Origin: a virus
Reading direction: 5' to 3' (one strand)
Virus record (IMG/VR): IMGVR_UViG_3300011113_000648
Span: 1-24,961 of that record
Length of the DNA stretch: 24,961 bases
Positions 3,286 to 21,473 of this stretch are shown piece after piece. The position numbers were made by a program, and so were the translations under genes. Within the stretch, counting starts at the first letter, position 1. Each line of letters begins with the position of its first letter. The notes under the pieces were generated by a model. It worked only from the letters and a program-made list of their open reading frames with translations, was not told where the DNA came from and ran no database searches.

Positions 3286-6233
3286 TAATTACAATTTATA
3301 CTAAGGTTTATTCCTATATTTAGGTATAGTTTTTTATTTGTGAAGTCATCGTAACAAGTAGAATTACTAATAACCAAAGTTTTACCCGCAAAATAATAAT
3401 TCAACCCATGATTATATAAACCAACCAATTCATTATTAATCGCATCAGATATTTGAACAAATGTTGGTGTGTCGTAAAATCCATAACCCGTATAGAATTG
3501 TTCTTGGACTAATATTGTATTATCTAATCTACAATCTATAAACCAGTCTGAAACAATACTTGTTAAATCACAATTTGATTGTGTGTAACCACTTTGAGCG
3601 ATTACCGAGTTTAAAACTTGAGTTAAATAAGTTTGTGGACTTTGTATATTTAAACCACAAGATAAAGTTTGGTCAATACAATCATATCCAAATAATTGAC
3701 CGTCGAACGTACACGGAACACATTCTACAGGAATAAATTGACAACCTCTTTGTCTTCTCCAAACAAATTTTTGTCTATGAAAAATTGAATTTTCCATTTT
3801 TTGACCTGTAAGCCAAAGTGTTGTTGCTGGAACCAATTGTTCTAATAATCTTTGCCAATAATCACCAATACCTAAGGTATAATCAATCATTTTTTGATAT
3901 GTAAATTGATTAGAAGGTATTCCTACGGTTTGTTGAGACTGAAGATATTTCCAATATATTGATTGAAGTGTTGGGTATCCGCCAGTTTTACCGTCAAATA
4001 TTGTTTGTCTGTTACGCACATTAATCATATTCATAAAAAATGATTGGGCAAATTCAAAGAAGGTTTTTTCTTTTGGTTTTGGATTTACAAATGTCCAATC
4101 AATAGCTCCCGGATATGGATAAGGTGAGGTTAATCCTGAGTTTGGAATTGGATAGTCGTATTTAACACACATGTCCCAAACATCATATACTAAACCTTGT
4201 CCCATATTGATATTTAATTCGATGTTTTTTGAATTTATAATTTGTTTATCACTTGTAACTGTATAATCTACACCATTAAAATTTGAATTATTTTTTCTAT
4301 TTCCTATATCATCTACAGACCAAGATTTTTGGTTGTCAAATATTTTTGTTATTGTATAACCTTCATTTAAAAAAGGAAATTTTGTGAACCTATCCAAATA
4401 TTCTTGACCAAAAGATGGTGGTTGTAGTTGTGTAACAACACTAGGTATATTTTGATTCAATTGTGAGTTTTCCAAATCAACTACTTGCGGAGCCCTATGT
4501 TTTGGACTCGACTCAAACCATCCTGAACCTTTTTGGAAGAAAAAGTCATCGGATTGTTGCGGAGCTTTTGGGTATCCATCGTTTGATATACCATAATCAT
4601 TCAACGTAGTTGTTACGGTTTCAACATTTCCATCGGTTGTAAAACCTGTGTAAGTAACTCCATGTACCGAAAAAGTATTTGTTGGGTCTAGAGCCGGTCT
4701 TTCAACATATACTGTGCCTCCACTAATTTTGGCATAGTTTTCTTTGAATTGCTCGACATTAATTTTTGAATCTACTAAATAAACAACTTCATTAAATTCT
4801 GTAATGGCCTCAGGAGCACCAATAAGTCTCATTATATATTCTAAAGAATTTCTTGTTCCTTTAGATTTAAACATATATGCCGAGTTTAATATCACATTTC
4901 TATAATATTGATAATTCAACTCTGAAGGGGTTTGGTTTTGAGCCTGTCCTGTATATATTTTGTTTGTTGGAGTACTAAATACCGCTTCTAATAATTGGTC
5001 ATTGTTTATTGGTGAAATATTTGTATTAACCCCAAGTGTTTGTGCTAAATTTACTAAAAGTTGTGAAGGTATGTCATTTCCAACAACATAGTTTACTGAG
5101 TTCATATTCGCAAGAGCGTCTATAAACTTTTTAACTTCGTCAAAACTTCTACCATATATTTGCAAGATTTTTTCCATTCTTTGGTCTTGCGTGTCAAAGT
5201 CTTTGAGGGAACCTGTTGTTAAAAATCTTGATATTAAATTTGTTTTATAATCATCCAAAAATGTTGCAATACTACTTAATTTTTCTAAATATGTGTCAAA
5301 CTGAGACGACACAATATCCAAATTCCAACTACCATCTAAAAACCAAGTTACACTTTCAATTTTTAAAGTATATTCTCCGTTTGAATCATAATAAGGATAT
5401 TGAAATGTTGATGTATACTTTGGTTGGGTATTTCTATTTAAAATAAAATCTTCAACTTCATCAAATTCATCTTGGAATATTTCAGCGGTTTTTTGTGTGT
5501 TTGGTTTTATAATTAAATTGTCTGTTGATGCGGTTGCACCTGAAAATGGATTACCAACTACTGTCATAGTGATTGTTCCTGCAGTAAGTGTTTGTGATGG
5601 TATGAAATCCACTAACGGATATTCTGTAGTTACACTAGAAAAATATAAACTGTAAAACTGAAAATTACTTGTTATATCTCTAAAGTTTGATGTTCTAATT
5701 GGCCTGACTAATAAATTTCTTTTGGCGTTTGATGAGTAATCAATATCAAATGGGTTTACAATCCAAGGAACATTAACATCAAAAGTTGTTAAATTCTCTA
5801 TCGGGTCAAAAGTAATGTTTATGGCCGTATATCCTGATGTGAGTGAGAGCGTTTTACTTCTAACGTCTAATGCTGCTGGAAAATTACTTATAATTTTTGT
5901 AATCGAAGCAGACAATCTTTTTTGTAAAGAACCATAAAGAGTAAAACTAGTAATCTGTGAAATATCAAAATTTGGATATACCGCAAAGTTTTTTTGAATT
6001 ATTTTTTTGGTTTGTTCAATGTCTTCAATATTTAGATTTTCTAAATTGTAAAGTTGTGAAAAAACACCTAAATCAAAATTTCTATTTACCTTTTCGTATA
6101 TGGCGGTTGTAAATTGAAAATTTCCCTGTGTTAGTCCACCACCAGTGACCAACTGAAATCCAACTATGTTGTTAAACGCAGTTGAACTACCTACAGGAGG
6201 TGCTGGTGGGTATTTGAAAATTTGTTTAGCCAT
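3285..6233 (-). CDS. Large baseplate protein with a P2 gpI / T4 gp7-like segment
   Basis: A 982-residue protein whose ATG overlaps the upstream stop as TAATG; its own stop overlaps the next ATG in the same way. The middle (about residues 325-490) resembles the P2 gpI-type tail family: helices around FLDDYKTNLISRFL and YGRSFDEVKKFIDAL, then SKGTRNSLEYIMRLIGAPE with Lys-Gly-Thr at 458-460. In P2, W-J-I correspond to T4 gp25-gp6-gp7, and this window has W and J homologues upstream, which supports a wedge role. The protein is far longer than P2 gpI, and the flanking 300-500 residues are unassigned. A C-terminal cysteine cluster (831, 838, 841, 852, 859) could bind metal or form disulphides. A virion baseplate role is well supported; the exact gp7 equivalence is an inference. 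Confidence 0.75.
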   Translation of the reverse strand: MAKQIFKYPPAPPVGSSTAFNNIVGFQLVTGGGLTQGNFQFTTAIYEKVNRNFDLGVFSQLYNLENLNIEDIEQTKKIIQKNFAVYPNFDISQITSFTLYGSLQKRLSASITKIISNFPAALDVRSKTLSLTSGYTAINITFDPIENLTTFDVNVPWIVNPFDIDYSSNAKRNLLVRPIRTSNFRDITSNFQFYSLYFSSVTTEYPLVDFIPSQTLTAGTITMTVVGNPFSGATASTDNLIIKPNTQKTAEIFQDEFDEVEDFILNRNTQPKYTSTFQYPYYDSNGEYTLKIESVTWFLDGSWNLDIVSSQFDTYLEKLSSIATFLDDYKTNLISRFLTTGSLKDFDTQDQRMEKILQIYGRSFDEVKKFIDALANMNSVNYVVGNDIPSQLLVNLAQTLGVNTNISPINNDQLLEAVFSTPTNKIYTGQAQNQTPSELNYQYYRNVILNSAYMFKSKGTRNSLEYIMRLIGAPEAITEFNEVVYLVDSKINVEQFKENYAKISGGTVYVERPALDPTNTFSVHGVTYTGFTTDGNVETVTTTLNDYGISNDGYPKAPQQSDDFFFQKGSGWFESSPKHRAPQVVDLENSQLNQNIPSVVTQLQPPSFGQEYLDRFTKFPFLNEGYTITKIFDNQKSWSVDDIGNRKNNSNFNGVDYTVTSDKQIINSKNIELNINMGQGLVYDVWDMCVKYDYPIPNSGLTSPYPYPGAIDWTFVNPKPKEKTFFEFAQSFFMNMINVRNRQTIFDGKTGGYPTLQSIYWKYLQSQQTVGIPSNQFTYQKMIDYTLGIGDYWQRLLEQLVPATTLWLTGQKMENSIFHRQKFVWRRQRGCQFIPVECVPCTFDGQLFGYDCIDQTLSCGLNIQSPQTYLTQVLNSVIAQSGYTQSNCDLTSIVSDWFIDCRLDNTILVQEQFYTGYGFYDTPTFVQISDAINNELVGLYNHGLNYYFAGKTLVISNSTCYDDFTNKKLYLNIGINLSINCN

Positions 6234-8262: not shown

Positions 8263-9104
8263 TATGGGTTTCCGTATTCATACCATTTTATGACATTAGT
8301 CGTATCGCCAACTCTTAAAAGTGAGGGTGCTTGGTTTTGTTGTGGAATTTCTTTATAAACTTGGTATTCGTAGTTTGTGAAATCTAATTCCACTTTATAA
8401 TAAAAATATTGTGATTTATTAAAATTAAATTTATTTCCCGCAGAAAATGTTGATTGCGGTTCATTCATAAATCTAACAAATTGACCTGTTTTTGCATTAA
8501 AGAACTTTGCAGTCATATAAAATTCTGTTATGTTAATAAAATCTCTTTCTTTCAACCAGTAAATAAAAAACCCTTCCTTATCCGCTCCCGTGTAGTCCAA
8601 TTTCATTTTTGGTTTTTTTACTTTCACCTGTGTTTGATTATTCAACGGACCTAAAAACCCAACTCTTGTTTGTCCTTGTTGTGTTGGTATTATTACACTA
8701 AAATACGCTTTCTGATTTTCGTTTGTTTTGGTGTCGTAAAAATCTAATTTAAAAAAACTTCCTTTAAATGAGTTTGAAAAATAATATAGTTCTGAATCCG
8801 TAAAAGTTGCGTTTGCATAATCAACGGACCAATCACTTGAAGTCGCAGCTGTTACTTGTACGGTAGAATCTAAAAAGTAAAAATCGTAGTTTATATCTGT
8901 CTTATCGGGGGTTTGTAAATAAGGTTTATTTGCAAACCTTGTGGTTTCAAAATCATCAATACCGTTTATTAAGTCTTGTAATATATCATTTTCAAATTTG
9001 ACTATTCCATCATTTCTTCCTGCCATATCAAAAGTCATTTCAACAGGTATGTTAATGAATGTATCATTTGGTGTAACACTAAATCTGTAATAATTATTAT
9101 TCAC
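8262..9104 (-). CDS. Uncharacterised baseplate-region protein with GTG start (280 residues)
   Basis: I do not recognise this family. The start is GTG at 9102-9104: an in-frame TAA lies four codons upstream, and the first in-frame ATG is not until residue 23. The GTG gives an 8-base overlap (GTGAATAA) with the preceding gene, like the 8-base overlap at the next junction upstream, which supports it. The protein is soluble-looking and rich in aromatic residues (many Phe/Tyr), with no membrane helix or catalytic motif visible. The N-terminal part, VTPNDTFINIPVEMTFDMAG, looks like a beta-sandwich start. Context, between two structural-looking proteins in the tail operon, suggests a virion component. 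Confidence 0.75.
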   Translation of the reverse strand: MNNNYYRFSVTPNDTFINIPVEMTFDMAGRNDGIVKFENDILQDLINGIDDFETTRFANKPYLQTPDKTDINYDFYFLDSTVQVTAATSSDWSVDYANATFTDSELYYFSNSFKGSFFKLDFYDTKTNENQKAYFSVIIPTQQGQTRVGFLGPLNNQTQVKVKKPKMKLDYTGADKEGFFIYWLKERDFINITEFYMTAKFFNAKTGQFVRFMNEPQSTFSAGNKFNFNKSQYFYYKVELDFTNYEYQVYKEIPQQNQAPSLLRVGDTTNVIKWYEYGNP

Positions 9105-10812
9105 AATCGTCGTTTATAATTTGTTGATATTCATTAGAGAATGTGTTGTTATTTCTTTGTATTGGGTATTGTAAGAAAATACAATTTAGAAATGGATAAT
9201 GGGCTCCGTTTATAAATGGATTATTAACACCTATACCGTCACTATCAATAAACCCATACGTATATAAATCTCTCCATAACCATTTATTGTTAAACTCACT
9301 AAACCAAGAATAACCTGGTATCCCATCTACAGATTTTTTATCACCATTTTCAACATAATCACTAAAAGCCCTAATTGGTATCGAGTGGTGAGGGTTATAT
9401 AAATAACCATCAGGATAGTTTTGAGTTCCTGAAGTTTGAAATAATGTGTCATTAAATGAATATTTATGGACCATTTTTGACAAAACATATTCTTTTTGCT
9501 CAATATAATTGTATTCGCAAAAATCCCCCAAAATAACATCACCTTCATTTAATATATCATTATAGTAAAAAGTTTGACCATTATAAAAGTAAGATAATGT
9601 TGGTATGTTATCTTTATTTAAAGAACTACTGTGATTCCACCACGTATCTATTGAATTTTGTAAAAAGTTAAAATTCCACCCAACGTCAATACCACTTGGT
9701 GTTCCATTTTGATTTGGAAAAGGTTTGTTAAACCATCCCATATATCCTCTGTTTACTACAGTAAAAAATAATTCAGTTATTGGTTTTCCATTGTTGTCCA
9801 TATAAGGGGCAATTTTTATATCTTTGTCAAAGGTAAATGAAAAACTTTGGGTATTATTTTTAATCGAAACTCTTTGTATTTGATTGGGGGTTAGTGCCGA
9901 ATATTCTAATTTTTTATCAATAGCAAATGGATTGTTTTCAAATCCAATTTTACCAACATTACACTGCTCGTTATTTTTTATTATTTTGTGTAATCTTACA
10001 TAGTATATCGATTTTGTTTCTGCAGAGTTTGCAGTTTCCGTAATTCTTTTAAGATTTCCATATATACCGGTTTGGACATCAACAGGTGGGTATTTTAAAT
10101 CATAAATTGTAAAAACTTTTTCCTCTGAATTAATTGTTCCATCACCCAAAGAATAAACTTGAAAAATTGTTCTGTTGTTAATTGGGACCGATAGTTCAAC
10201 AAAGTCTCCAATTTTTAAGTTGTGAATTGTCCCACAATAAAAATAAACAAGTTGTTTACCGTTGAACTTACCTGTGGTTAAAACATAAGGAATGCCGTCA
10301 CCAGATAAAAAACCACTATTTGTTACACCAAACTTTTCATCGGTATAGGACATTGTTTGAGCCGTAGTACTGGAAAATGCGTAACTAATATAAAATGACC
10401 AATTATATGACGATGCACTTTTAGTAACAAATGGGATGTGCCCTGTAATTCCACTTACTCTTACCATTGTAAATTCATCAAATTGTGGATTTCCTTCCCA
10501 AAAATTAGAATTATTTGTAGCGTTTGTTATAGCATTTGTGTAATACAGATAATTTTTAAATGGTGTGTATGAAGTTTTACCGGTAACTACGTTATCAAAA
10601 AGATTTGTAATTTTACCAGCGACTCTAAATTTATCACTCGATTGTCTTTCTTGGTCAAAAACAGTTTGTTGATTTACTAAAATACTTCTATCCCCTTCAA
10701 TTAAATCTCTTCTATCCCCAATTAATGGTGGTTGTATCCAAACATCTCTATCAACACTACCAGCACTTCTTTCAGAACCAAGAACTATTCTTATTTCATT
10801 TTGATTACTCAT
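9097..10812 (-). CDS. Uncharacterised large tail/baseplate protein (571 residues)
   Basis: I do not recognise the family. The 571-residue protein starts at ATG 10810-10812, overlapping the stop of the 1611-residue gene by 8 bases (ATGAGTAA). The N-terminus is polar and Arg/Asp-rich (GSERSAGSVDRDVWIQPP, then GDRRDLIEGDRS). The remainder is beta-rich with many Tyr, Phe and Asn residues, as is common in phage tail proteins. Two stretches stand out: an aromatic WWNHSSS segment and a His-containing YNPHHSIPIRAFSDY segment, but neither forms a recognisable active site. There is no signal peptide or membrane helix. The tight overlap with the 1611-residue protein suggests the two products act in the same substructure. 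Structural role inferred from context. Confidence 0.75.
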   Translation of the reverse strand: MSNQNEIRIVLGSERSAGSVDRDVWIQPPLIGDRRDLIEGDRSILVNQQTVFDQERQSSDKFRVAGKITNLFDNVVTGKTSYTPFKNYLYYTNAITNATNNSNFWEGNPQFDEFTMVRVSGITGHIPFVTKSASSYNWSFYISYAFSSTTAQTMSYTDEKFGVTNSGFLSGDGIPYVLTTGKFNGKQLVYFYCGTIHNLKIGDFVELSVPINNRTIFQVYSLGDGTINSEEKVFTIYDLKYPPVDVQTGIYGNLKRITETANSAETKSIYYVRLHKIIKNNEQCNVGKIGFENNPFAIDKKLEYSALTPNQIQRVSIKNNTQSFSFTFDKDIKIAPYMDNNGKPITELFFTVVNRGYMGWFNKPFPNQNGTPSGIDVGWNFNFLQNSIDTWWNHSSSLNKDNIPTLSYFYNGQTFYYNDILNEGDVILGDFCEYNYIEQKEYVLSKMVHKYSFNDTLFQTSGTQNYPDGYLYNPHHSIPIRAFSDYVENGDKKSVDGIPGYSWFSEFNNKWLWRDLYTYGFIDSDGIGVNNPFINGAHYPFLNCIFLQYPIQRNNNTFSNEYQQIINDDCE

Positions 10813-13800
10813 CTTGATTTAAAATGTATAATTTGATGTATCTGTTTATCGCACTTTTACCTTTATTTAATCCATAATAAAAATGATTTGGTCCTCCAAC
10901 AACATACTGTTGAGGTGTTCCTGCCGGCCAATTAGGATTTGACAATCCTTGTGGAGTCTGATTAAAAATAAATCCTCTTCGTCCCGTAGTTGAAGAATTA
11001 AAATATGGTGTTGTTGGTGGTTTAAAACTAAAATTTTGATAGGCTTGTGAGTAAAATCCTCCACTTGGTAATACGTCGGTGTACCAATCATTTTTATCTG
11101 AACCAAATATTGTTGTTGTAACATCAGATTTCCATTGGTAAGTTGGTACAACTTGTGTTTTTGGATATCCAAAAAAGTTAGTCAGTGTTGGTGTGAAAGT
11201 TTGAATTCCAGGACTTAAAGTCAATCTGTTTACTGTGTTAGAGCTAAAAAATATCCCCATAAGTGCATCTCCCGTACCTAAGTAAAGTTCATTGTCAGAA
11301 TAGTTATCTTCATCAAATTCTTCTATACCATATTCAGAATTTATTGAAAACATTTGAGCAACGTCACCATCTATTCTATCTTCACTTCTTGAAAACATCC
11401 TATTAATTGATGCATCACCTAAACCTAAAACTTGTCCCCAAAAGTTAGAATTTATGAGTCTCGATATAATGAAAAGTTGTAAAATTTCAGAAGTATCATT
11501 ATATGATGTACTTTTTATTGTTTCAATCATATATCCTTCAAAATTTGGATTTGTACAAATTTCTTTTGTGAATTCATCTCTTGGTCCTAAATCCATAATT
11601 GTTGTTGGGAAAAACAAATTACGAACATTCATTCCTTTAAAATTTGCATCTTGCATGTCTTGTCTAGGTTTTTGTCCTATGAAATTAGTTCCATCGTAAA
11701 CAGCACTTCTATAAAAAAGTGAGTTACTCGTCCCTCTAGTGTAGAAAATTGGACCTTGATATGCTCTTCTTGTACTATCGGGAGTTCCGCAGAACTTATA
11801 TTTTTTTGGTTGTCCCGTTATACTTAATATTGTTTGTTTTTTTAATGAAAACATGTATAATGTTCCATTTACCCAATTATTTTGAAAAACTTGTGAAAAT
11901 ATTCCACGGCAAGCGGCAAACACCATTCTGAATCTTGATTTCCATTCAAAAAAGTAAACCACATCTTTAGGTATTGATACTATCAATGGGTTATCAACAA
12001 ACTTATAACAACCTCCTGACATTCTCTTACCGTTAGGATTTTCACTACATGGATTTTGAACCGAAAAAGAAGTTCCTCCTCCTTGATAACATTTTAATAC
12101 TGTCATATTTTCACAAGTCAAAGAGGCTAATACCGTACTAGATACTTGACTTGGAGTATCTCCTGTAAGGTCCTGAGCATTATTAGTTGTGTCTCCAGGT
12201 CCATTAGTTGTGGGAGCCAATGTCACACCTCCGCCTCCATCAATAGTATATATAGAAAAGTTGTCATTTAAAAATAAACTGAAAGAACTGTTACCACTTA
12301 CCTCAGTTATATCTGAAGTTGGTAATCTATCTGACCTAAATACAATATTTGTTGGGTTTGATACCGTTATATTTGTACTAACGGTTGTGTGGTAGGCCGG
12401 TGAGTAAACTCTAGTTGTTGTGTTTGTAGTATTTAAAGGGGTGCCAGGAACTGCGGTTGACGCAATTAATGAACCGCCTTCGATATTACCTTGAGGACTT
12501 AAAACACCATTTGTCCATTGGAATGCCAATCTGTTATTTCCAACGCTAGGTTGTATATTAGAATAGACCCCTTGTGGTGATGTAAAATACCCCAAATTAA
12601 GAGCATCTGAACTGTAAGCTTTAAATGCACTTTGTGATTTATCGGTCGAGTTGTAATAGTATGGACTGTTATTTGTAAATGCCGAAAATAATACAGGGTC
12701 AGGAATAAAACCAAATGATGGATGATAAAGAGAAACGTTTGTGTTATTTGAAACCAAATGTGATTCTGGCGTCTTATAATCATTAAACCACAAACCACTA
12801 CCCGTATTTTGTTGTATTGGTATATTCAGATGATAACTACCCTCAACAAATGGCCCTGTTCCTAAGTTATAACCAAATAGTTTTGATAAATCATATTTTA
12901 TGTTTTGTTTTTCTGTATATGGGTCAGTTCCTCTTGTTAAGAAAATTACCTCGTAATTTGCAAAATTATCGATAAATTTGATTGGGAATACATAGTCGCA
13001 CTGTTGAGGTGATAAACCATAACAAAATCTTTGTGTTTTTTTAAATAGGTATTTATTTAGTAGTCCACCTGAAGTGTTTGTCATACCAGAAAACTGTGTT
13101 ACGGTTCCTCCTGTAATTACTTGGAAGTATTCTACACCGGCAGGAAATTTGTAATCTTTTCCGTCTTCAGAGATTTTTAACTTTAGGTTTGCGGTTTGTT
13201 GTGTTCCATTTTGATTTATATAATTCACAGGCACTGTCACTAAACTTGATGCATTATATAAAGTTGTTCCTGTTATAGAGTTAGTATTAAATTGGTTAGC
13301 GTTTGTAATACCTGTTAAATTAGGGTCATTAATTTTACTAATGTCTTGAAATGTTAATATTTGTCCAGGAGGTAATCCGTTAAATGTTCCACTATCAACA
13401 AACAACATTAATACATTATCGGTAAATGGTTGTGACGCATCAACCGTTACAGTATTTGGAATTGTGTTTCTAACCGTAGTTTGAATGAGGTTTTCTCCAT
13501 CAAAATATCTTTGTCTTATATTTGCAAGATTTAAAGATTGTGATAAAGTAACATCATTTGCTAAAAATTTTGTCCCTCCTTGAGCCGGAATTTCAGCAAT
13601 TGGTGTTTTTATTAGTTTATCATCATTATTACCTAAATTTTGAAATTGATATCCTGCCATGGCTTGTGAAACGCCGTTGTTGTATGCTGGTACATCGTTA
13701 GAGTTTGCGGCCAATATTGAATTATACGTACTAAAACTGACCGTAGAATTTGTATCACCAAGTGGGCTATTATTTTGTGACGATATTGAACTGTTTGCCG

Positions 13801-15640
13801 TCTGTGCAAATGAGGATTGTGTAGTGTCTTCTGTTAATGGCTCATCGGTACATGGACAAGCCTCACAATCGGGGTATGACAACATCGGTAATGATATTCT
13901 TTTGAAAGGGTTGTCTTTATCGAGAGGTTTAATAGCTTCTTTTTTACAACCACCCTTAGGTCTTGCACCGAATGTTATCGCACTAATAGCCAAACAAATA
14001 CCGTAAATAACGACGTTAATTAACCAAATTAATAAATTTATTATTATTCTAATTATTGGATATAAGAGCGCCAATACATGTAAAATAATTATTAAAGTTA
14101 TAAAAGTTGGAGTTATAAGTATTGTTAATAAACTAAAAAGAAAAAATATAAAATCAAAATTTCTCACACCGTCATTAACGGGAAACCTGTTTGTTGTTGT
14201 TGTACATCTTCTATCTGTTATTTCTTTAATACCTAAGTGTCGACTTCTATTAAATCCCCATTTCCATCTATCAATAAAATTAGAAATTGTATAAACTTTG
14301 TTAAAGTGAAATTCATAAAACTTATCTTGACAATTAACCGCCTCTTGAATCATTTGTTGTCCGATTGTGGTATTAACATCTCCATAGTCGTCCCAATCCA
14401 AACTAAAGGCATAAGATTTTAACTGAGCTGTTGGGTCGGTAGGTGTATCCACATTTGCAGTTGTCCAACCCCATTCTTTTATATTAGGAACAAGGTAGTC
14501 TGCTCTTAAAACACTTGACCTCATACCATCCTCATTTTGGTATTGAATTCTAAATCTATATTTACCTTTTGTGGGAATACCAACTTTGGGGTCTTGTGAT
14601 ACGACTTGTTCTCCAAATTCATTAGTTGTAACATAATCTAAATTCATAGGGACATTAACCAACCAAGTACCGTTATCATCAATAACTTTTCCTCCTTCAG
14701 GTAATGAGTACTGTTCTAATGCAGGTCTACCATTTACATCGTAATTAATTGTTTGTCTTATTGCCAAAATAGTTCCTTGACCTGTTACCAAATCACATAA
14801 ATTTCCAGAGTCTTTTTTAGGTTTACAATTTGATTTTAAAAAATCTTCTTCACTTGTTGAAAATATAGACCCCATAAAAACCGCTTGAGGGGTAATTTCT
14901 ATACCCAAATCTCTTAAATCAAAATCAACCCTTGTTATTCCAACATTACAAATATTCTCTTCACCCCAAAAAGATGCTACATCAATATCTTTTTTCTGTC
15001 CAACTATTTGTGGTAAAGAATCTAAATCCGTAGATGATTTAAATTTGTCCCCATCGAATTGTTCAGAAGTTCCACGACCCAATCTAATTAAATCTGCAGG
15101 TCTAAGAGAAAAACACCCAATGTTTGATAAGTCCAAATCTAATACCGCAGTTTGAATTCCTAATGGAACACCAACAATCATAAAGTCACCACTTTCGTTT
15201 GTTTTTACAGTATACTTATAATATTTTTCGTAAATTTCTAATACTTCTTTTCTTTTTAAAACGTCTTCAACATCAGGAAATGTTCCAGTAGCCGTGTGTC
15301 CTCCATATTCTTGAACATATGGTAATAAATTGTATCTGAAACCTTCTTCGTTTTTTTGGTCTGGTCTTTTGTATGGGTATAGTGTTGAGATAATTGGGTC
15401 ATTTTCATCAAAAGCGTCTAAAGGGACAAAAATCGATACGTTTGCATTTGGTACTCCGTAACCACCGTTAACTACAACCCTTCCCGCCACTACACCATAA
15501 TCTGCACAAAACCTAGTGTACACATCTTCTTGTCTCAATTTTAGAGAAAGTATTTCTAAAAAATCAAAATCTTGAGTTACGTTGATTCTTAAGTTTTGGT
15601 CTTTGAGCGGTTGAGCCTTTAGTCTATATGTTTTTGTCAT
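10805..15640 (-). CDS. Giant baseplate-region protein with an internal hydrophobic multi-helix segment
   Basis: A 1611-residue protein, the largest in the window. Residues about 50-172 resemble a carboxypeptidase-regulatory-like beta domain: VAGRVVVNGGYGVPNANVSI at the start, TNESGDFMIVGVPLG near the end, with an insertion between. Residues 495-557 are almost uninterrupted Phe/Leu/Ile/Val and could make two or three membrane-spanning helices, broken at TP and YP. A basic patch (RPKGGCKK) and a Cys motif (C592-x2-C595-x-C597) follow. The remaining thousand residues are beta-type, with further Cys-rich segments. It lies between gp6 and the other wedge genes, has ATG at 15638-15640, and its stop overlaps the next gene by 8 bases. 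Possible roles are a tail-tip protein that enters the membrane during DNA entry, or a protein with a buried hydrophobic core. No known family is assigned. Confidence 0.8.
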   Translation of the reverse strand: MTKTYRLKAQPLKDQNLRINVTQDFDFLEILSLKLRQEDVYTRFCADYGVVAGRVVVNGGYGVPNANVSIFVPLDAFDENDPIISTLYPYKRPDQKNEEGFRYNLLPYVQEYGGHTATGTFPDVEDVLKRKEVLEIYEKYYKYTVKTNESGDFMIVGVPLGIQTAVLDLDLSNIGCFSLRPADLIRLGRGTSEQFDGDKFKSSTDLDSLPQIVGQKKDIDVASFWGEENICNVGITRVDFDLRDLGIEITPQAVFMGSIFSTSEEDFLKSNCKPKKDSGNLCDLVTGQGTILAIRQTINYDVNGRPALEQYSLPEGGKVIDDNGTWLVNVPMNLDYVTTNEFGEQVVSQDPKVGIPTKGKYRFRIQYQNEDGMRSSVLRADYLVPNIKEWGWTTANVDTPTDPTAQLKSYAFSLDWDDYGDVNTTIGQQMIQEAVNCQDKFYEFHFNKVYTISNFIDRWKWGFNRSRHLGIKEITDRRCTTTTNRFPVNDGVRNFDFIFFLFSLLTILITPTFITLIIILHVLALLYPIIRIIINLLIWLINVVIYGICLAISAITFGARPKGGCKKEAIKPLDKDNPFKRISLPMLSYPDCEACPCTDEPLTEDTTQSSFAQTANSSISSQNNSPLGDTNSTVSFSTYNSILAANSNDVPAYNNGVSQAMAGYQFQNLGNNDDKLIKTPIAEIPAQGGTKFLANDVTLSQSLNLANIRQRYFDGENLIQTTVRNTIPNTVTVDASQPFTDNVLMLFVDSGTFNGLPPGQILTFQDISKINDPNLTGITNANQFNTNSITGTTLYNASSLVTVPVNYINQNGTQQTANLKLKISEDGKDYKFPAGVEYFQVITGGTVTQFSGMTNTSGGLLNKYLFKKTQRFCYGLSPQQCDYVFPIKFIDNFANYEVIFLTRGTDPYTEKQNIKYDLSKLFGYNLGTGPFVEGSYHLNIPIQQNTGSGLWFNDYKTPESHLVSNNTNVSLYHPSFGFIPDPVLFSAFTNNSPYYYNSTDKSQSAFKAYSSDALNLGYFTSPQGVYSNIQPSVGNNRLAFQWTNGVLSPQGNIEGGSLIASTAVPGTPLNTTNTTTRVYSPAYHTTVSTNITVSNPTNIVFRSDRLPTSDITEVSGNSSFSLFLNDNFSIYTIDGGGGVTLAPTTNGPGDTTNNAQDLTGDTPSQVSSTVLASLTCENMTVLKCYQGGGTSFSVQNPCSENPNGKRMSGGCYKFVDNPLIVSIPKDVVYFFEWKSRFRMVFAACRGIFSQVFQNNWVNGTLYMFSLKKQTILSITGQPKKYKFCGTPDSTRRAYQGPIFYTRGTSNSLFYRSAVYDGTNFIGQKPRQDMQDANFKGMNVRNLFFPTTIMDLGPRDEFTKEICTNPNFEGYMIETIKSTSYNDTSEILQLFIISRLINSNFWGQVLGLGDASINRMFSRSEDRIDGDVAQMFSINSEYGIEEFDEDNYSDNELYLGTGDALMGIFFSSNTVNRLTLSPGIQTFTPTLTNFFGYPKTQVVPTYQWKSDVTTTIFGSDKNDWYTDVLPSGGFYSQAYQNFSFKPPTTPYFNSSTTGRRGFIFNQTPQGLSNPNWPAGTPQQYVVGGPNHFYYGLNKGKSAINRYIKLYILNQDE

Positions 15641-15714: not shown

Positions 15715-17553
15715 TTAGTAGAAGTCTACAGTCCTTAATTGTTTAACTCGCACATTAATGTCTCGAGAATCAAATCTAATTTGATATATTTGGTCAGGCT
15801 CTGCGAATATTGTGTCATCAATCAAAAGAATTTCTTTTGTTTCCAAGTCCACATACCTTTGTGAAGTTTCAGATGAAGAATATTGACCACCTACTTTATT
15901 GTAAATTTTCAAATCGGTAAGTGTGTTTACTCCGGCAGTATTTTGAATTAATCGTCTTACTTCAGAAACGTTGAGGTTTTGACCTAAGTCTCTATTTTGT
16001 GGATTCATGTATCTCGATACTTGGTCAATAATTTGAGTTATAATTTGACTTTGAGCTGTATTGTTTTCTATTACAACTGAAATTTCAAATTCTAAATCAA
16101 TAACTTTAGCAACATCAATAGATATGTAGTCGTTTATCATCCTATATTTTGATAGATAAGTTGCAAGATTTGTTTTAAGAGTATTTGGGACTGTCTGTGT
16201 CAAATTACCATCACCATCATAAGATAAAATTTGAACGGTAATTTTATTGTTATTTTCAGTGATTGCAACTTTCGATGGTGCACCAAACTTACCAGGCATT
16301 GTGTCTATCAAAGATTTGTAATCATTTACAGTCACTGCTCTTTTTTGAGATGCAAAATTAAATGCCACCATGTTTCTAGTCTCTTCGATTGTTGGTTGGT
16401 TTGCCCCTCCAACAGCACTTGTAACATTATTTACTTTTATTGATTGTATGACACTTTGATTAATTTGTGACGAAGGCCCATTTACCGACAAATCAATCAA
16501 TCCAACTTGATTGATTGCACCAACACCAACATTCGAAACCGTTCCTCCACCAACACGATATTGGACAAACAAAGTAGTATTTGGTGTTACGGTTAAACCT
16601 AATCCAATATTATTTTGATAATTCTGTATTTTCAAAGGCATTCCAATATTTGCGAACTGTTGTAATTGTTGGTTCGGTGTTGTTGTTGCAGCACCAAATT
16701 GAATTTTCATATATCCTTCTGGTGTGTATTCTGTAATAAACCTATTATCTGTTTTAATATATTTTCCTACCTTTATACCTGCATTATCAATTGGTTTTGT
16801 TGTATCTTCAATAAACACCGTATCTTCCGCTAATGCGTCGACTTCATACCATTTATTTTGACTTGTTATAAATTCAGCGTTAGTTGGTGTTGATTGATAT
16901 TGTGTCCCATCTTTTTGAATTATGGTTGTAACAGATAATACATCTTTTTCAGGTAAGAAAAAATTATAAAAAGGAACTACATCTGCAGCGTTAACAACTT
17001 GTTTATAAACTTTGGTTACACCATTGAGAACTACTTCTCTTTTTGTAATTATATAACTAATTATTTTATTATTGGCGTCAAAAACGGGAATTTTTGTTCT
17101 ATTATTAAAACCTTCGTTATTATATTGTGTTGAAAAGTCAACGTCGTATACAGTTTCAAAAGTTTGTCCTCCACCATTAAACTGAGCACCAGCCCTCAAA
17201 ATACCAAGATAACGTGTGTCTTCATTGTCTCCAAATGCCGGAACTTGTATTGAAATATCCGCTAAAGCAACTGATGGTCTAAAACCTGGAATTTTTAATC
17301 CATAGGTCCTTGCAATATTGAAAATAGACGACCTTTGTTGTGCGTATTGTAGAACAGTTTCTTGAATACTTCTATCAATATGAAAATGTAGATTGTCACC
17401 GATAGCGGCATTCAAATCCATTAATACTGAAAAAATTGACGCATCATTAAAGTTTTGTATTACTTCGGGGTAATATTGTTGTGTATAATTGATGAGGTCT
17501 TTTCTGAGACTATCAAAATCTCTACTAGTATAGTTAATTTTTTGTGTTGCCAT
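15715..17553 (-). CDS. gp6: Baseplate wedge protein, T4 gp6 / P2 gpJ family
   Basis: A 612-residue protein, close to T4 gp6 (660 residues). In T4, gp6 forms the ring joining the wedges of the contractile-tail baseplate. Diagnostic parts are the N-terminus NYTSRDFDSLRKDL with YYPE, the helical DASIFSVLMDLNAAIGDNL, and the J-type core at about 370-415: SAVGGANQPTIEETRN, then the RAVTVNDYKSLI strand-helix. The C-terminal region, about 470-600, looks like the gp6/J tail that contacts neighbouring wedge subunits. The ATG is one base after the gp25 stop (TAACATG), so the pair is a tight unit in the same W-J order as in P2. A 74-base gap follows. Family assignment is firm; no unusual residue changes are evident. 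Confidence 0.92.
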   Translation of the reverse strand: MATQKINYTSRDFDSLRKDLINYTQQYYPEVIQNFNDASIFSVLMDLNAAIGDNLHFHIDRSIQETVLQYAQQRSSIFNIARTYGLKIPGFRPSVALADISIQVPAFGDNEDTRYLGILRAGAQFNGGGQTFETVYDVDFSTQYNNEGFNNRTKIPVFDANNKIISYIITKREVVLNGVTKVYKQVVNAADVVPFYNFFLPEKDVLSVTTIIQKDGTQYQSTPTNAEFITSQNKWYEVDALAEDTVFIEDTTKPIDNAGIKVGKYIKTDNRFITEYTPEGYMKIQFGAATTTPNQQLQQFANIGMPLKIQNYQNNIGLGLTVTPNTTLFVQYRVGGGTVSNVGVGAINQVGLIDLSVNGPSSQINQSVIQSIKVNNVTSAVGGANQPTIEETRNMVAFNFASQKRAVTVNDYKSLIDTMPGKFGAPSKVAITENNNKITVQILSYDGDGNLTQTVPNTLKTNLATYLSKYRMINDYISIDVAKVIDLEFEISVVIENNTAQSQIITQIIDQVSRYMNPQNRDLGQNLNVSEVRRLIQNTAGVNTLTDLKIYNKVGGQYSSSETSQRYVDLETKEILLIDDTIFAEPDQIYQIRFDSRDINVRVKQLRTVDFY

Positions 17554-17554
17554 G

Positions 17555-18019
17555 TTATATATTAAGTATTATGAATTCCCTTGAACCAAACGCATTATTG
17601 TCATCAGTGTAATCGATAGTAAGTTTAGCAGTATATTCTTGAGTTTCTTTTCCAGGTATTTTATAAATCTCACTTGTTCCTAATAAATTTTGATTTAATT
17701 CTCCTGGTGCTTCATCAGACTGTAAATATGGAACTACACTTATATCATTAATTGTTAGGTTAGGAATGTATTTTTCAATCTGTTGTTGGACTTCTGATTT
17801 TATTGCATCAAAAGTTTCACCATCAAGTGGGTCAAAAATAAATTCATATATTCTAGTCCCAAAATCAGGATTATAATATCTACTTCCCTTAGCCGTTAAC
17901 AATAAATGTAAAAGATTGGCTCTAATTTCATCACCAGCATTCTCACTTAAACCAAAATAATAATTTAGAGGACTTCCTATAAATGGAAAAATAACTCCGT
18001 AAGTATTTCCTTGTGCCAT
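17555..18019 (-). CDS. gp25: Baseplate wedge subunit, T4 gp25 / P2 gpW family
   Basis: A 154-residue protein of the gp25/GPW family (T4 gp25 is 132 residues), which sits at the sheath-proximal face of the wedge and helps start sheath assembly. Visible family features are SPLNYYFGLSENAGDEIRAN (about 16-35), LLLTAKGSRYYNPDFGTRI (about 39-57), and FIFDPLD at about 60-66. The GSR-x4-FGTR arrangement matches the family's conserved Gly-(Glu/Ser)-Arg...Phe-Gly core. It is the first gene of the tail operon, lying after the nrdA terminator. The 78-base gap before it is AT-rich, with CTATTTAA about 31 bases before the ATG but no clear promoter consensus. The slightly longer C-terminus, ending in a beta-type SREFIILNI, is unremarkable. 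Confidence 0.93.
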   Translation of the reverse strand: MAQGNTYGVIFPFIGSPLNYYFGLSENAGDEIRANLLHLLLTAKGSRYYNPDFGTRIYEFIFDPLDGETFDAIKSEVQQQIEKYIPNLTINDISVVPYLQSDEAPGELNQNLLGTSEIYKIPGKETQEYTAKLTIDYTDDNNAFGSREFIILNI

Positions 18020-18097: not shown

Positions 18098-20515
18098 TTA
18101 AGAAGAACATCCAAAACATTCAAATTCAGAATCAGTTGGTCTTGTTGGTAAAACACTTTCTTTTAGTATCCTATCAGGTGATGGTGGAGATGGTACTTGT
18201 TTTTTAGACATATCTAAAGCCAAATGTTTAGCCCCAGTCGATATTGCTTTAGTTCTAACATAATAACACAAAGTCTTTAAACCACTTTCCCATGCGTGAA
18301 AATGTGATGAGGTTATTTTTGACAAAGTTGGATTTGACATATAAATGTTCATGGACTGTGATTGGTCAATAAACGGTGCCCTCTCAGCGGCCATGTCAAT
18401 TAGTTGTTTTTGTGATATCTCCCAAATGGTTTTATACTTGGGTATCAAGTGTTCTATTCTTTTGACTTTTTTATTATAGTTCTTGTCTTCAGAATCTAAA
18501 TAATTATTAAAATTAATGTTTTGAATTGAACCTTCATTCATAATAATTTCATTTTTCAAATCTTCTGACCAAATACCAATTTTTTCAAAGTCATTTATTA
18601 GATATTTGTTTACAATCATGATTTCACCACCAACAACTCTTCTATTAAACAATGCCGAATGTGCTGGTTCGGTCATTTCAAATGAACCAGTAATTTTAGC
18701 AGAAGATGCAACAGGCATTTGTGCGGTAAACAAAGAATTACAAACACCATACTTCATTACATTTTCTTTCAACTCTTTCCAATTCCAAAATAAGTCACTT
18801 TCATCTAATCCCCACATATCAAATTGAAATACCCCTTTTGACATTGGTGAGCCGTTAAAAAAATCATATGGTTTGTATTTACCTTCCATACATAGTTGAT
18901 TGCTTTCATAAACTGATGCGTAGTAAATTGTTTCAAAAATTTCTTTGTTTAATTTTTTTGCCTCATCTGAAGTGAATATGTAGTCCATTAGATAAAACAC
19001 GTCAGCGAGTCCTTGTGTACCAATTGCAATTGCTCTTTGTTCAAGACCTCCTTTTAGACCTTTTTTTGTTGAGTAGTTGTTAATGTCTACAACTTTGTTC
19101 AAAGCTCTAACAACTTTTCTAACTTCATTAAAAAGTTTTTCAAAATCAAACTTATTTCCGTTGACAAAGTTCTTCAACACAATTGAAGAGAGTGTGCAAA
19201 TTGCTGTAGTATTTTCATCGGTATATTGATAGATTTCATTACAAAGGTTCGATTGTTTGATAACACCAATATTTTGATGGTTGGTTTTACTGTTTGCACT
19301 ATCTTTAGAACACAAATAAGGAACACCTGTTTCAACTTGTGACTCTATAATTTTAGTCCAAATAGTTTGTGCTGAAACTTTTTTACCTAAACCTAACTCA
19401 ACAGCTCTATTATAAATCTCTTCATATTCATCCCCATAACATTCTTGTAGTGGTTTTAAACCCGCCTTTTTAATGTCATTAGGACAGAACAAATACCAAT
19501 CTCCATTATTTTTGACCGCCCTCATAAAATTGTCAGGTATCCAAAGAGCAGTAAATAAATCACGAGCCCTTAACTCTTCAGCCCCCGTATTCTTTTTAAT
19601 GTCGAGTAAATCAAAAATGTCTTTGTGCCATGGTTCTAAGTAAATAGCTGCAGAACCTGGTCTTCTACCTTGCTGATTAAAAAATCTTAGTGACTCATTT
19701 ACTATTTTTAAATACTTAAGTAATCCACCTGCATATCCACCTGAAGTTGTAATTCTACTTTCTTTACTTCTAATATTAGACATAGAAAGACCTATACCTG
19801 CAGCGTCTGAAGAAAAAGTAGATATATCATTTAGTGTCCCTAATAAACCTTGTCTTGAATCAGAGTCGTTGTAATGTAAAACACATGACGCTAACTGAGG
19901 AACTTTAGTTCCTGAATTAATCATTATAGGTGTTGCTTTAGAAATCAACTGATTAGAAAGTGACTTGTAATATTCAACAGCGTCTTCAAAAGTATCGGTA
20001 ACCCAAAGAGCAACTCTCATGTACATGTGTTGTGGTCTTTCTATAACTTTACCATTTGGTTTTTTTAACAAGTACATCTCTTGTAAAGACCTCCAAGCAA
20101 AGTAATCAAAGTTATAATCATTATCGTGATTAATTACCGCATCTATTAAATTTTCACCATAGTTATCAATTTTTTTAATTAGTTCTTCGTTAATTATACC
20201 ATCTAAATATAACTCTTTCATAGTTTGTGAAAAACTATCGTTTGTTTCTTTATGATATGATGATATTGCGACTGATGATGCTAATCTTGAATAATCGTGG
20301 TGACTACCAGTGTATGATGCGGCTATTTCATAGATTAACTTATCTAATTCTTTTGTTGTTACTTCACCTTCTGTTGGTACAGAAGTGATTACCTTGATAA
20401 AAATTTCATCAGAATTTACGTTCAAACCTTTTGCTGAACGTTTTACTCTATTGTAAATTTTTTGTGGGTTAAAGGCAACATTCTCCCCCACTCTTTTAAT
20501 AATTTTTAATGACAT
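18098..20515 (-). CDS. nrdA: Ribonucleoside-diphosphate reductase alpha subunit, class I
   Basis: This enzyme reduces ribonucleoside diphosphates to deoxyribonucleotides for phage DNA synthesis, working with NrdB. The 805-residue chain opens with an ATP-cone (about 1-90), the allosteric activity switch. Catalytic residues are all present: Cys211 (ASCVLHY) and Cys440 (AICTLSS) as the redox pair, and Cys425 in NLCNE as the thiyl-radical residue, with Asn423 and Glu427. Tyr751-Tyr752 (LCYYVRTK) serve radical transfer. The C-terminal CFGCSS (Cys800, Cys803) is the shuttle for thioredoxin or glutaredoxin. It starts at ATG 20513-20515, ten bases after nrdB, and ends at the terminator. The gene is uninterrupted by intein or intron, which often invade phage nrd genes. 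The order nrdB then nrdA is the reverse of E. coli and T4. Confidence 0.97.
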   Translation of the reverse strand: MSLKIIKRVGENVAFNPQKIYNRVKRSAKGLNVNSDEIFIKVITSVPTEGEVTTKELDKLIYEIAASYTGSHHDYSRLASSVAISSYHKETNDSFSQTMKELYLDGIINEELIKKIDNYGENLIDAVINHDNDYNFDYFAWRSLQEMYLLKKPNGKVIERPQHMYMRVALWVTDTFEDAVEYYKSLSNQLISKATPIMINSGTKVPQLASCVLHYNDSDSRQGLLGTLNDISTFSSDAAGIGLSMSNIRSKESRITTSGGYAGGLLKYLKIVNESLRFFNQQGRRPGSAAIYLEPWHKDIFDLLDIKKNTGAEELRARDLFTALWIPDNFMRAVKNNGDWYLFCPNDIKKAGLKPLQECYGDEYEEIYNRAVELGLGKKVSAQTIWTKIIESQVETGVPYLCSKDSANSKTNHQNIGVIKQSNLCNEIYQYTDENTTAICTLSSIVLKNFVNGNKFDFEKLFNEVRKVVRALNKVVDINNYSTKKGLKGGLEQRAIAIGTQGLADVFYLMDYIFTSDEAKKLNKEIFETIYYASVYESNQLCMEGKYKPYDFFNGSPMSKGVFQFDMWGLDESDLFWNWKELKENVMKYGVCNSLFTAQMPVASSAKITGSFEMTEPAHSALFNRRVVGGEIMIVNKYLINDFEKIGIWSEDLKNEIIMNEGSIQNINFNNYLDSEDKNYNKKVKRIEHLIPKYKTIWEISQKQLIDMAAERAPFIDQSQSMNIYMSNPTLSKITSSHFHAWESGLKTLCYYVRTKAISTGAKHLALDMSKKQVPSPPSPDRILKESVLPTRPTDSEFECFGCSS

Positions 20516-20525
20516 AGCTTATATT

Positions 20526-21473
20526 TTAGAAGTCTTCTGTAAATGTTATTGTTTCGTTTAACTTAGCTTTTTGGTATTCGACCGTTCTTGATTCAAAGAA
20601 ATTACCTTTTGTTTCAACCGCAATCTGTTCCATGAACTTAAAAGGTTGTTCTACGTTGTATTCCTTAGAACATCCCATTTTTACTAAAAGTCCATCTACA
20701 ACAAACTCTAAGTATTGTTTCATTAGATTTGAATTCATACCGATAAGTGAAACAGGTAAAGACTCAGTGATAAACTCTTTTTCTATTTCAAGAGCCGACA
20801 ACAATATTTCTTTAATTCTTTTTTCTGATGGTTTTTCTTCCAAGTGATTGTTTAACAGGTGTATTGCAAAATCACAATGTAAGTTTTCATCTTTAAAGAT
20901 AAGTGAGTTAGCGTTACATAGACCTTGCATAATTCCTCTTGACTTCATCCAAAAGATGGCACAAAATGAACCTGAAAAGAAGATACCTTCAACAGCCGCA
21001 AACGCCACCAATCTTTCGGCAAATGAAGCCTTTTCAATCCATTCTAATGCCCATTTTGCTTTTTTCTGTACTGCAGGTAATCTATCAATCGCATTGAAAC
21101 ACTCATCTTTTTCTTTTGGGTTTCCAATGTACGTATCAATTAATAAAGAATACATAAGTGAATGAATGTTTTCCATTGCCAACTGCATACCGTAGAAAAA
21201 CTTTGCTTCAGGGTATTGTACTTCACGATAAAAGTTTTCAGCCAAGTTTTCATTTACAATACCATCGGAAGCGGCAAAAAATGACAATACATTTTTAATA
21301 AAGTACTTTTCATTGTCTGTAAGATTTTCCCAATCTCTGATGTCATTTGTTAAGTCGACTTCTTCTGCCGTCCAAAATGCAGCTTGGTGTTGTTTGTAAT
21401 ATTCCCATATATCGTTATGTTCGATAGGGAAGATGACGAAACGTCCAGGATTTTCTGTTAATATTTTTTCCAT
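20526..21473 (-). CDS. nrdB: Ribonucleoside-diphosphate reductase beta subunit, class I
   Basis: The radical-generating partner of NrdA. The 315-residue chain is near the short end of the class I beta range. The di-metal ligands are visible as Asp40 (WTAEEVD), Glu101 and His104 (ENIH), Glu162 (AVEGIFF), and Glu196 and His199 (DENLH). Tyr108, four residues after His104, is in the position of the E. coli stable tyrosyl radical, so this looks like an ordinary tyrosyl-radical enzyme. The C-terminal tail (TITFTEDF) is acidic and aromatic, as expected for docking into NrdA. It begins 13 bases after the helicase stop and is followed within ten bases by nrdA, so the two are co-transcribed. Confidence 0.97.

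Follow-up and report, generated by a model that had tools for sequence, protein, structure and literature searches.

A giant protein encoded within the baseplate gene block of an uncultured virus carries in its middle a strongly hydrophobic segment, which at a probability of about one half we read as a latent element that would insert into a membrane during genome delivery. The protein, referred to here as X, is the 1611-residue product of an open reading frame (ORF) at 10805-15640 on the minus strand of the virus record IMGVR_UViG_3300011113_000648, which was analysed over its whole length of 24,961 bases (the window). Judged by its sequence and genomic setting X is best read as a baseplate structural protein of contractile phages that form a large uncultured clade. 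An initial annotation of the window had singled out residues 495-557 of X as hydrophobic enough for membrane helices and these residues map to 13970-14158, at most two bases from where it had placed them.

Hydropathy was expressed as the mean Kyte-Doolittle value (KD) over 19-residue windows with a cut-off of > 1.6 for a segment, and free-energy sums were formed from the residue values of the biological hydrophobicity scale with the position terms left out. Fifty-one windows above the cut-off span residues 491-561 (13958-14170, minus strand, as for all features of X) with a peak of 2.65 at residue 516, against a highest value of 1.56 in the remainder of X, which bears out the membrane-grade hydrophobicity proposed earlier for residues 495-557. 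Across the fetched loci a KD of at least 2.0 was reached by 142 of 150 X ORFs versus six of the 563 remaining ORFs with a length of 400 residues or above. These six comprise the window's own copy of X, the gp6-like proteins of the near-identical loci L091, L092 and L093 (7663-9552; KD 2.07) and two 1375-residue ORFs (L081, 2473-6597; L082, 3088-7212; both on the minus strand; KD 2.65), the last two being the sole other large ORFs to equal X in hydrophobicity. The membrane-grade hydrophobic stretch in X is sound and beyond chance.

The two halves of the predicted helix differ in character. The first half (residues 497-527, 14060-14152) is transmembrane-like and charge-free, with windows starting at residues 495-513 having a mean hydrophobicity of 0.73-0.91 and a hydrophobic moment of at most 0.21, and its amphipathicity is no higher than that of shuffled sequences (p 0.54). 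The second half (residues 528-555, 13976-14059) is amphipathic with an Arg/Asn stripe; the moment rises to 0.40-0.48 in windows starting at 519-531 and residues 528-548 of the window protein exceed their shuffles at p 0.004-0.006. Shuffling was applied to 11 of 18 chosen sequences, all from the close clade, as L027 and the distant clade were dropped for having too short an aligned stretch, and the second half was amphipathic at p < 0.03 in 10 of these 11 related sequences, the window included. The segment is preceded by a conserved motif at residues 485-496 (RFPVNDGVRNFD, 14153-14188). Behind it lie a Lys/Arg patch at residues 560-581 (13898-13963) and the motif C592-x2-C595-x-C597 (13850-13867, within LPMLSYPDCEACPC), both present as the initial annotation had described, and residues 556-585 contain eight Lys or Arg versus three Asp or Glu.

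Structure prediction with AlphaFold, which the initial annotation had proposed for the full protein, was run as two overlapping fragments of X, residues 1-640 (64 sequences, mean predicted local distance difference test (pLDDT) score 73) and residues 430-1611 (35 sequences, mean pLDDT 62). Both AlphaFold2 models contain a long helix over residues 497-555, at moderate confidence and as a single continuous helix. The earlier expectation of two or three membrane helices is supported in part; a break at Pro511 or Pro528 would make some 59 residues sufficient for two passes, but neither model shows one. A tightly packed soluble bundle, which the initial annotation had named as a refuting result, was not seen in these models, which cover single chains and were read as helix positions and confidence values. 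Directly before the helix pLDDT falls below 50 in both models, and behind it a similar drop covers residues 583-600 of the first model and 588-593 of the second. Beta-sandwich domains, carboxypeptidase-regulatory or transthyretin-like followed by pilin-like, are predicted for the N-terminal region (residues 46-455, 14276-15505); structural matches of its model to sandwiches of these kinds reach a Z of 7.1 and perhaps reflect a shared arrangement only. This model also matches the predicted structure of A0A8S5LA66 from Myoviridae sp. ctPuP5 over 439 alignment columns at 38% identity (E 2.5e-41), a viral protein to which no function is assigned; further BFVD matches, at E 2e-4 or weaker, were disregarded. 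No convincing fold match was returned by Foldseek for residues 430-1611 (best E 0.40).

In order to follow the segment among relatives viral contigs were scanned with X, giving 75 loci at 34-100% identity (from the best 80 of 266 matches), and with two relatives that lack the segment, L080 (80 loci from the best 80 of 225, of which 75 had identifiers absent from the first list) and L083 (12 loci). The resulting lists overlap (L190 repeats L083, and L145 and L152 are the same records as L056 and L014) and are a lower bound on a larger real total. An X ORF was present in 151 loci, with 144 reaching at least 600 residues and the other seven too short for judging the segment. The segment lies within residues 401-720 in 142 of the 144 (96 of 98 distinct sequences) and also occurs in all ten further loci of sufficient length, several of them near-identical, a further locus (L201) again being too short. 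Full-length proteins bearing it range from 1160 to 2401 residues and extend to a distant clade that is approximately 29% identical to the window protein over its full length. In six loci (L052, L053, L055, L060, L064 and L076) X has 2088-2106 residues, some 480 beyond that of the window, and in L085 (4978-8481) a LamG-like module, recognised by eye, seemingly stands in place of the C-terminal core.

Alignment statistics were drawn from 64 to 66 representatives of the 151 loci. Mean pairwise identity among 64 of them is 0.60 over residues 1-240 and 0.50 over 241-455, and declines to 0.33 over 497-527 and 0.31 over 528-555, yet the mean hydropathy of residues 497-527 is at least 1.46 in every one, so the hydrophobic property is conserved above the sequence itself. 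Charge-free runs of at least 20 residues occur in 61 of the 64. The segment has a dN/dS of 0.07-0.13 in the six of seven pairs for which it was computable, read against dS values that are high and in some cases near or beyond saturation. It appears to drift in sequence and not in character and to be kept for its hydrophobicity, as expected of such a part. Its length and make-up vary, with about 45 residues in L027, polar inserts splitting the hydrophobic blocks in L063 and L069, and shorter forms in the distant clade consisting of one transmembrane-like helix and one amphipathic helix. The pre-helix motif [RK][FLMY]PxN is found in 88 of 97 distinct relatives. CxxCxC falls inside residues 441-760 in 54 of the 97 versus 3.7% of shuffles, being fully or almost fully conserved within the close family, while the distant clade has different Cys-rich stretches. 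The flanks show a weak bias in charge (41 of 64 representatives are more positive behind the segment than before it and nine are equal). Within the C-terminal core the stretch FxNNWVNGxLYxF (residues 1252-1264, 11849-11887) is conserved.

The placement of X in a baseplate region, proposed by the initial annotation, is upheld by its gene neighbourhood. Directly upstream lies a gp6-like baseplate wedge protein (15715-17553, minus strand; phrog_219, E 5.1e-22; Baseplate_J, E 1.5e-5), preceded by a gp25-like wedge protein (17555-18019, minus strand; phrog_261, phrog_43), and next behind X is a gene for a 571-residue protein recognised by synteny (9097-10812, minus strand). Across loci these form a recurrent block in the order gp25, gp6, X, 571-residue protein, 280- and 362-residue proteins (not constant), 302-residue protein and 982-residue protein. 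The 571-residue gene is the first labelled gene behind X in 88 of the 90 loci where X is complete and followed by 2.5 kb of sequence. The end of gp6 lies within a strict distance upstream of X in 83 of 139 loci and no labelled gene does so in the other 56; in L084, L092 and L101 gp6 is still the next labelled gene upstream.

The most telling pattern is the contrast with tape-measure proteins. In the 120-kb record behind locus L009 the tail genes run in the order tube, hub, 669-residue protein, 2129-residue protein, gp53-like protein and 2191-residue protein, and the 669-residue protein is a tape-measure candidate that matches PHROG (E 0.0027) and, short of the family cut-off, Pfam TMP_3 (E 0.0022) over the same region. 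Eleven X-bearing records were searched; two (G007 and G009) yielded neither a tube match nor a tape measure, and in all nine others a homologue of the candidate comes next after tube and hub or one gene further on. The best KD of these homologues is 0.81-1.45 (the ninth read to 1076 residues), so none has a membrane-grade segment, and the 2129- and 2191-residue proteins with their homologues stay at or below 1.70 over the portions read, some of the large tail ORFs in this comparison ending at the edge of the fetched stretch. By comparison, Flavobacterium phage Immuto, the nearest annotated named phage by gp6, has the order sheath, tube, hub, tape measure, no detected X, and a 1006-residue protein annotated as the tape measure that reaches a KD of 2.24 near its end; the tape-measure counterparts of Mel-JY01 (2.37) and LR756508 (1.92), also without detected X, and gp29 of T4 (2.20) are likewise hydrophobic. 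For Immuto, Mel-JY01 and LR756508 the lack of a detected X refers to a profile search on 32-34-kb stretches, with no match above the inclusion threshold, and to tblastn on the whole genomes, again with no match. X itself does not fit a tape measure; in the window it is encoded behind gp25 and gp6, apart from the tube and hub genes, and it has no match in PHROG or Pfam, tape-measure profiles included. Nor did X match PDB sequences or named phages, and L080 and L037 as queries found none in named phages; among 22 X family members two have a weak match to phrog_8884 (best E 0.0011) and one has a match to phrog_16573 (E 0.066).

Membrane segments in tail proteins are known as a kind. In the literature such segments are described in the T5 tape-measure protein pb2 (PMC10038345), in the tape measures of roseophage R4C and of diffocin, and in the tape measure of TP901-1, where deletion of the first hydrophobic region left neither plaques nor lysogeny. 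Helices H1/H2 of lambda gpI and the iris/penetration domain of the R4C megatron are proposed to enter the outer membrane (PMC11101478, PMC10276861). The initial annotation had named tape-measure and ejection proteins as the known analogues, which holds for the tape-measure segments but leaves out the tail-tip proteins, which are close parallels too. Pb2 is a siphophage tape measure whereas X is a separate baseplate-block protein encoded beside its own tape-measure candidate, and gpI and the megatron share with X that they are tail proteins other than tape measures with possible membrane helices, although they belong to siphophage tail tips and are likened to X by function and not by sequence. 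The open-access literature searched, as far as its text was available (including PMC11101478, PMC10276861, PMC10996793, PMC8894136, PMC10038345, PMC5099701 and PMC10457771), yielded no myophage baseplate protein with a comparable membrane segment. A giant protein of the baseplate block carrying such a segment beside a segment-free tape-measure candidate is a variant that we did not find described there.

We propose that the middle of X is a conditional membrane element, a helix of approximately 59 residues with a transmembrane-like half followed by an amphipathic half, preceded by a linker of low prediction confidence and followed by a Cys-rich region. In the virion this helix would be shielded inside the baseplate, and rearrangement of the baseplate on the host would set it free. 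The first half of the released helix would then go into the host membrane while the amphipathic half, with its Arg/Asn stripe, would line or rim a passage built by several copies of X, through which the DNA would pass. X would in this way take on work proposed for the hydrophobic segments of tape-measure and tail-tip proteins in other phages. The location of X in the virion, its copy number and the shielding, release, insertion and pore are steps that we infer, and this reading of a hidden helix best joins the computed hydropathy, conservation, predicted helix, gene context and tape-measure contrast. A further step, that in this clade the membrane-crossing role has shifted from the tape measure to X with a ring of X helices serving as the DNA conduit, is offered tentatively and we hold it to be rather improbable; the segment-free candidate in all nine records fits such a shift, and no delivery layout of this kind was found described for contractile phages in the available parts of the literature searched.

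A number of observations count against a delivery role. The support for it is computational throughout, and the virion location of X is predicted from synteny. The predicted helix has a pLDDT of 65-84 in its core (10-residue means) with lower ends, is a single helix instead of a hairpin and at 59 residues is long for one pass, while the stretch behind it has a pLDDT of 57-69, so flexibility there is not evident. The second half in L071 is not amphipathic (p 0.13). A KD of 2.07 is also reached by baseplate proteins without a known membrane role, namely T4 gp7 and the gp6-like proteins of L091-L093. The tape-measure label of the 669-residue protein is weak and that of the LR756508 counterpart was assigned by position alone, and the contrast may represent one event, given the relatedness of the nine records. 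In all five distant-clade records examined (G003, G004, G005, G008 and G011) there is in addition an extra ORF between tube and hub with a KD of 1.92-2.15 (L170, 4463-6799; L171, 1228-3438; L172, 2304-5795; L173, 4637-6121; L174, 2281-4116; those of L171, L173 and L174 in reverse-complement coordinates) and an Ala/Gly-rich hydrophobic stretch such as ALDIASIAVLAIPGVGLAL. X is therefore not the sole candidate in the distant clade, the contrast is clean in just four of nine records, and the odds for a transfer of the role to X are lowered.

To the same side belong the two relatives in which the segment is missing, L080 (747 residues, complete) and L083 (753 residues, open at the contig end), and the position of X in L083 (9992-12262), where it lies behind the 982-residue gene. 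In both proteins the N-terminal domains run into the C-terminal core without the helix and without the Cys-rich middle; the helix is part of a region that may be wholly absent. The initial annotation had held that loss of the segment with no change in the rest of the protein would speak against a membrane role; no such case was found, these two being without the middle region too. The FxNNWVNGxLYxF stretch is kept in L080 and varied in L083. In L083 an 807-residue ORF resembling the 571-residue protein follows gp6, and in its 29-kb record tube and tape-measure matches were not found. Of the tape-measure candidate no more than 408 residues are present on a contig of the assembly that contains L080, with a best KD of 0.84, and a search of this assembly for the next tail gene found none. 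This assembly (G013, a 'Candidatus Wolfebacteria' metagenome; contig 16) contains pieces of this clade's phage on at least two contigs, which are perhaps misbinned.

The main rival is a buried core, in which the helices of several X copies, or of X with wedge partners, form a bundle or interface inside the baseplate and never meet a membrane. We consider it possible though unlikely. One long continuous helix in both models is coiled-coil-like, and along the amphipathic second half Asn residues recur with near-heptad spacing; buried Asn is frequent in helix bundles. This explanation is kept alive above all by T4 gp7, which like X is large, is encoded next after gene 6 and has a hydrophobic stretch, one that carries the GenBank note 'predicted integral membrane domain' (KD 2.07, residues 886-904, between domains V and VI); gp7 is a component of solved baseplates. 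X occupies this gp7-like position directly behind gp6 in the window but not in L083. Unlike the segment of X, that of gp7 is a single short stretch near the C-terminus, and the two proteins have no profile similarity. An identification of X as gp7 was rejected, with hhalign probabilities of 0.2, 0.1 and 0.2% (gp7 as a single sequence) against 82.7% for a gp6 control; gp7 is not among the structural matches listed for the X models, which excludes nothing about a shared fold. Against a buried core stand the first half of the helix, charge-free over 31 residues with a low moment and no evident polar face, and the differences in helix length and make-up among relatives, which a fitted bundle should resist.

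The segment could otherwise tether nascent baseplates to the inner membrane of the host, in the manner of Cis13 of a contractile system of Anabaena, an explanation to which we give little credence. Cis13 is, as X would be, a protein at the baseplate with a putative transmembrane helix, which anchors the system at thylakoids, and particles with truncated Cis13 are often free-floating (PMC8894136). A helix pair in X would also keep both of its large ends cytoplasmic. The Cis13 helix is however C-terminal and holds a cell-bound machine at the membrane of its own cell, whereas free virions must exit the cell with the segment concealed, and the transmembrane-like plus amphipathic short form of the distant clade might place one end of X outside. 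That X is a membrane protein which the phage makes for the infected cell, lying in the baseplate block by chance and absent from the virion, is very improbable, as the lack of a family match above threshold for the window protein in the libraries searched is opposed by its recurrent place in the order gp25, gp6, X and 571-residue protein, its size, its adhesin-like beta domains and its lack of a hydrophobic N-terminal stretch.

Other genes of the window bear on the wedge and on the host. The 982-residue protein at the end of the block (3285-6233, minus strand), whose profile matches a 1337-residue protein of Mel-JY01 (E 8.7e-9), has a Ser-Lys-Gly stretch that by eye resembles part of T4 gp7, and because of this likeness it may be, rather than X, the wedge-core partner of gp6; no profile match between it and gp7 was found. 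A nearby 768-residue protein (979-3285, minus strand) contains SprB repeats (Pfam PF13573, E 2.2e-12). The SprB repeat occurs in Bacteroidota gliding adhesins, and the Bacteroidota host assumed in the initial annotation is made plausible by these repeats, if not proven. Large and small subunits of ribonucleotide reductase (18098-21473, minus strand) adjoin the baseplate genes in the window and likewise in L009, and none is labelled in L052 and L084.

How the DNA of contractile phages crosses the inner membrane is little understood. A clade with a membrane-grade helix in its baseplate block and a tape-measure candidate without one offers a testable comparison.

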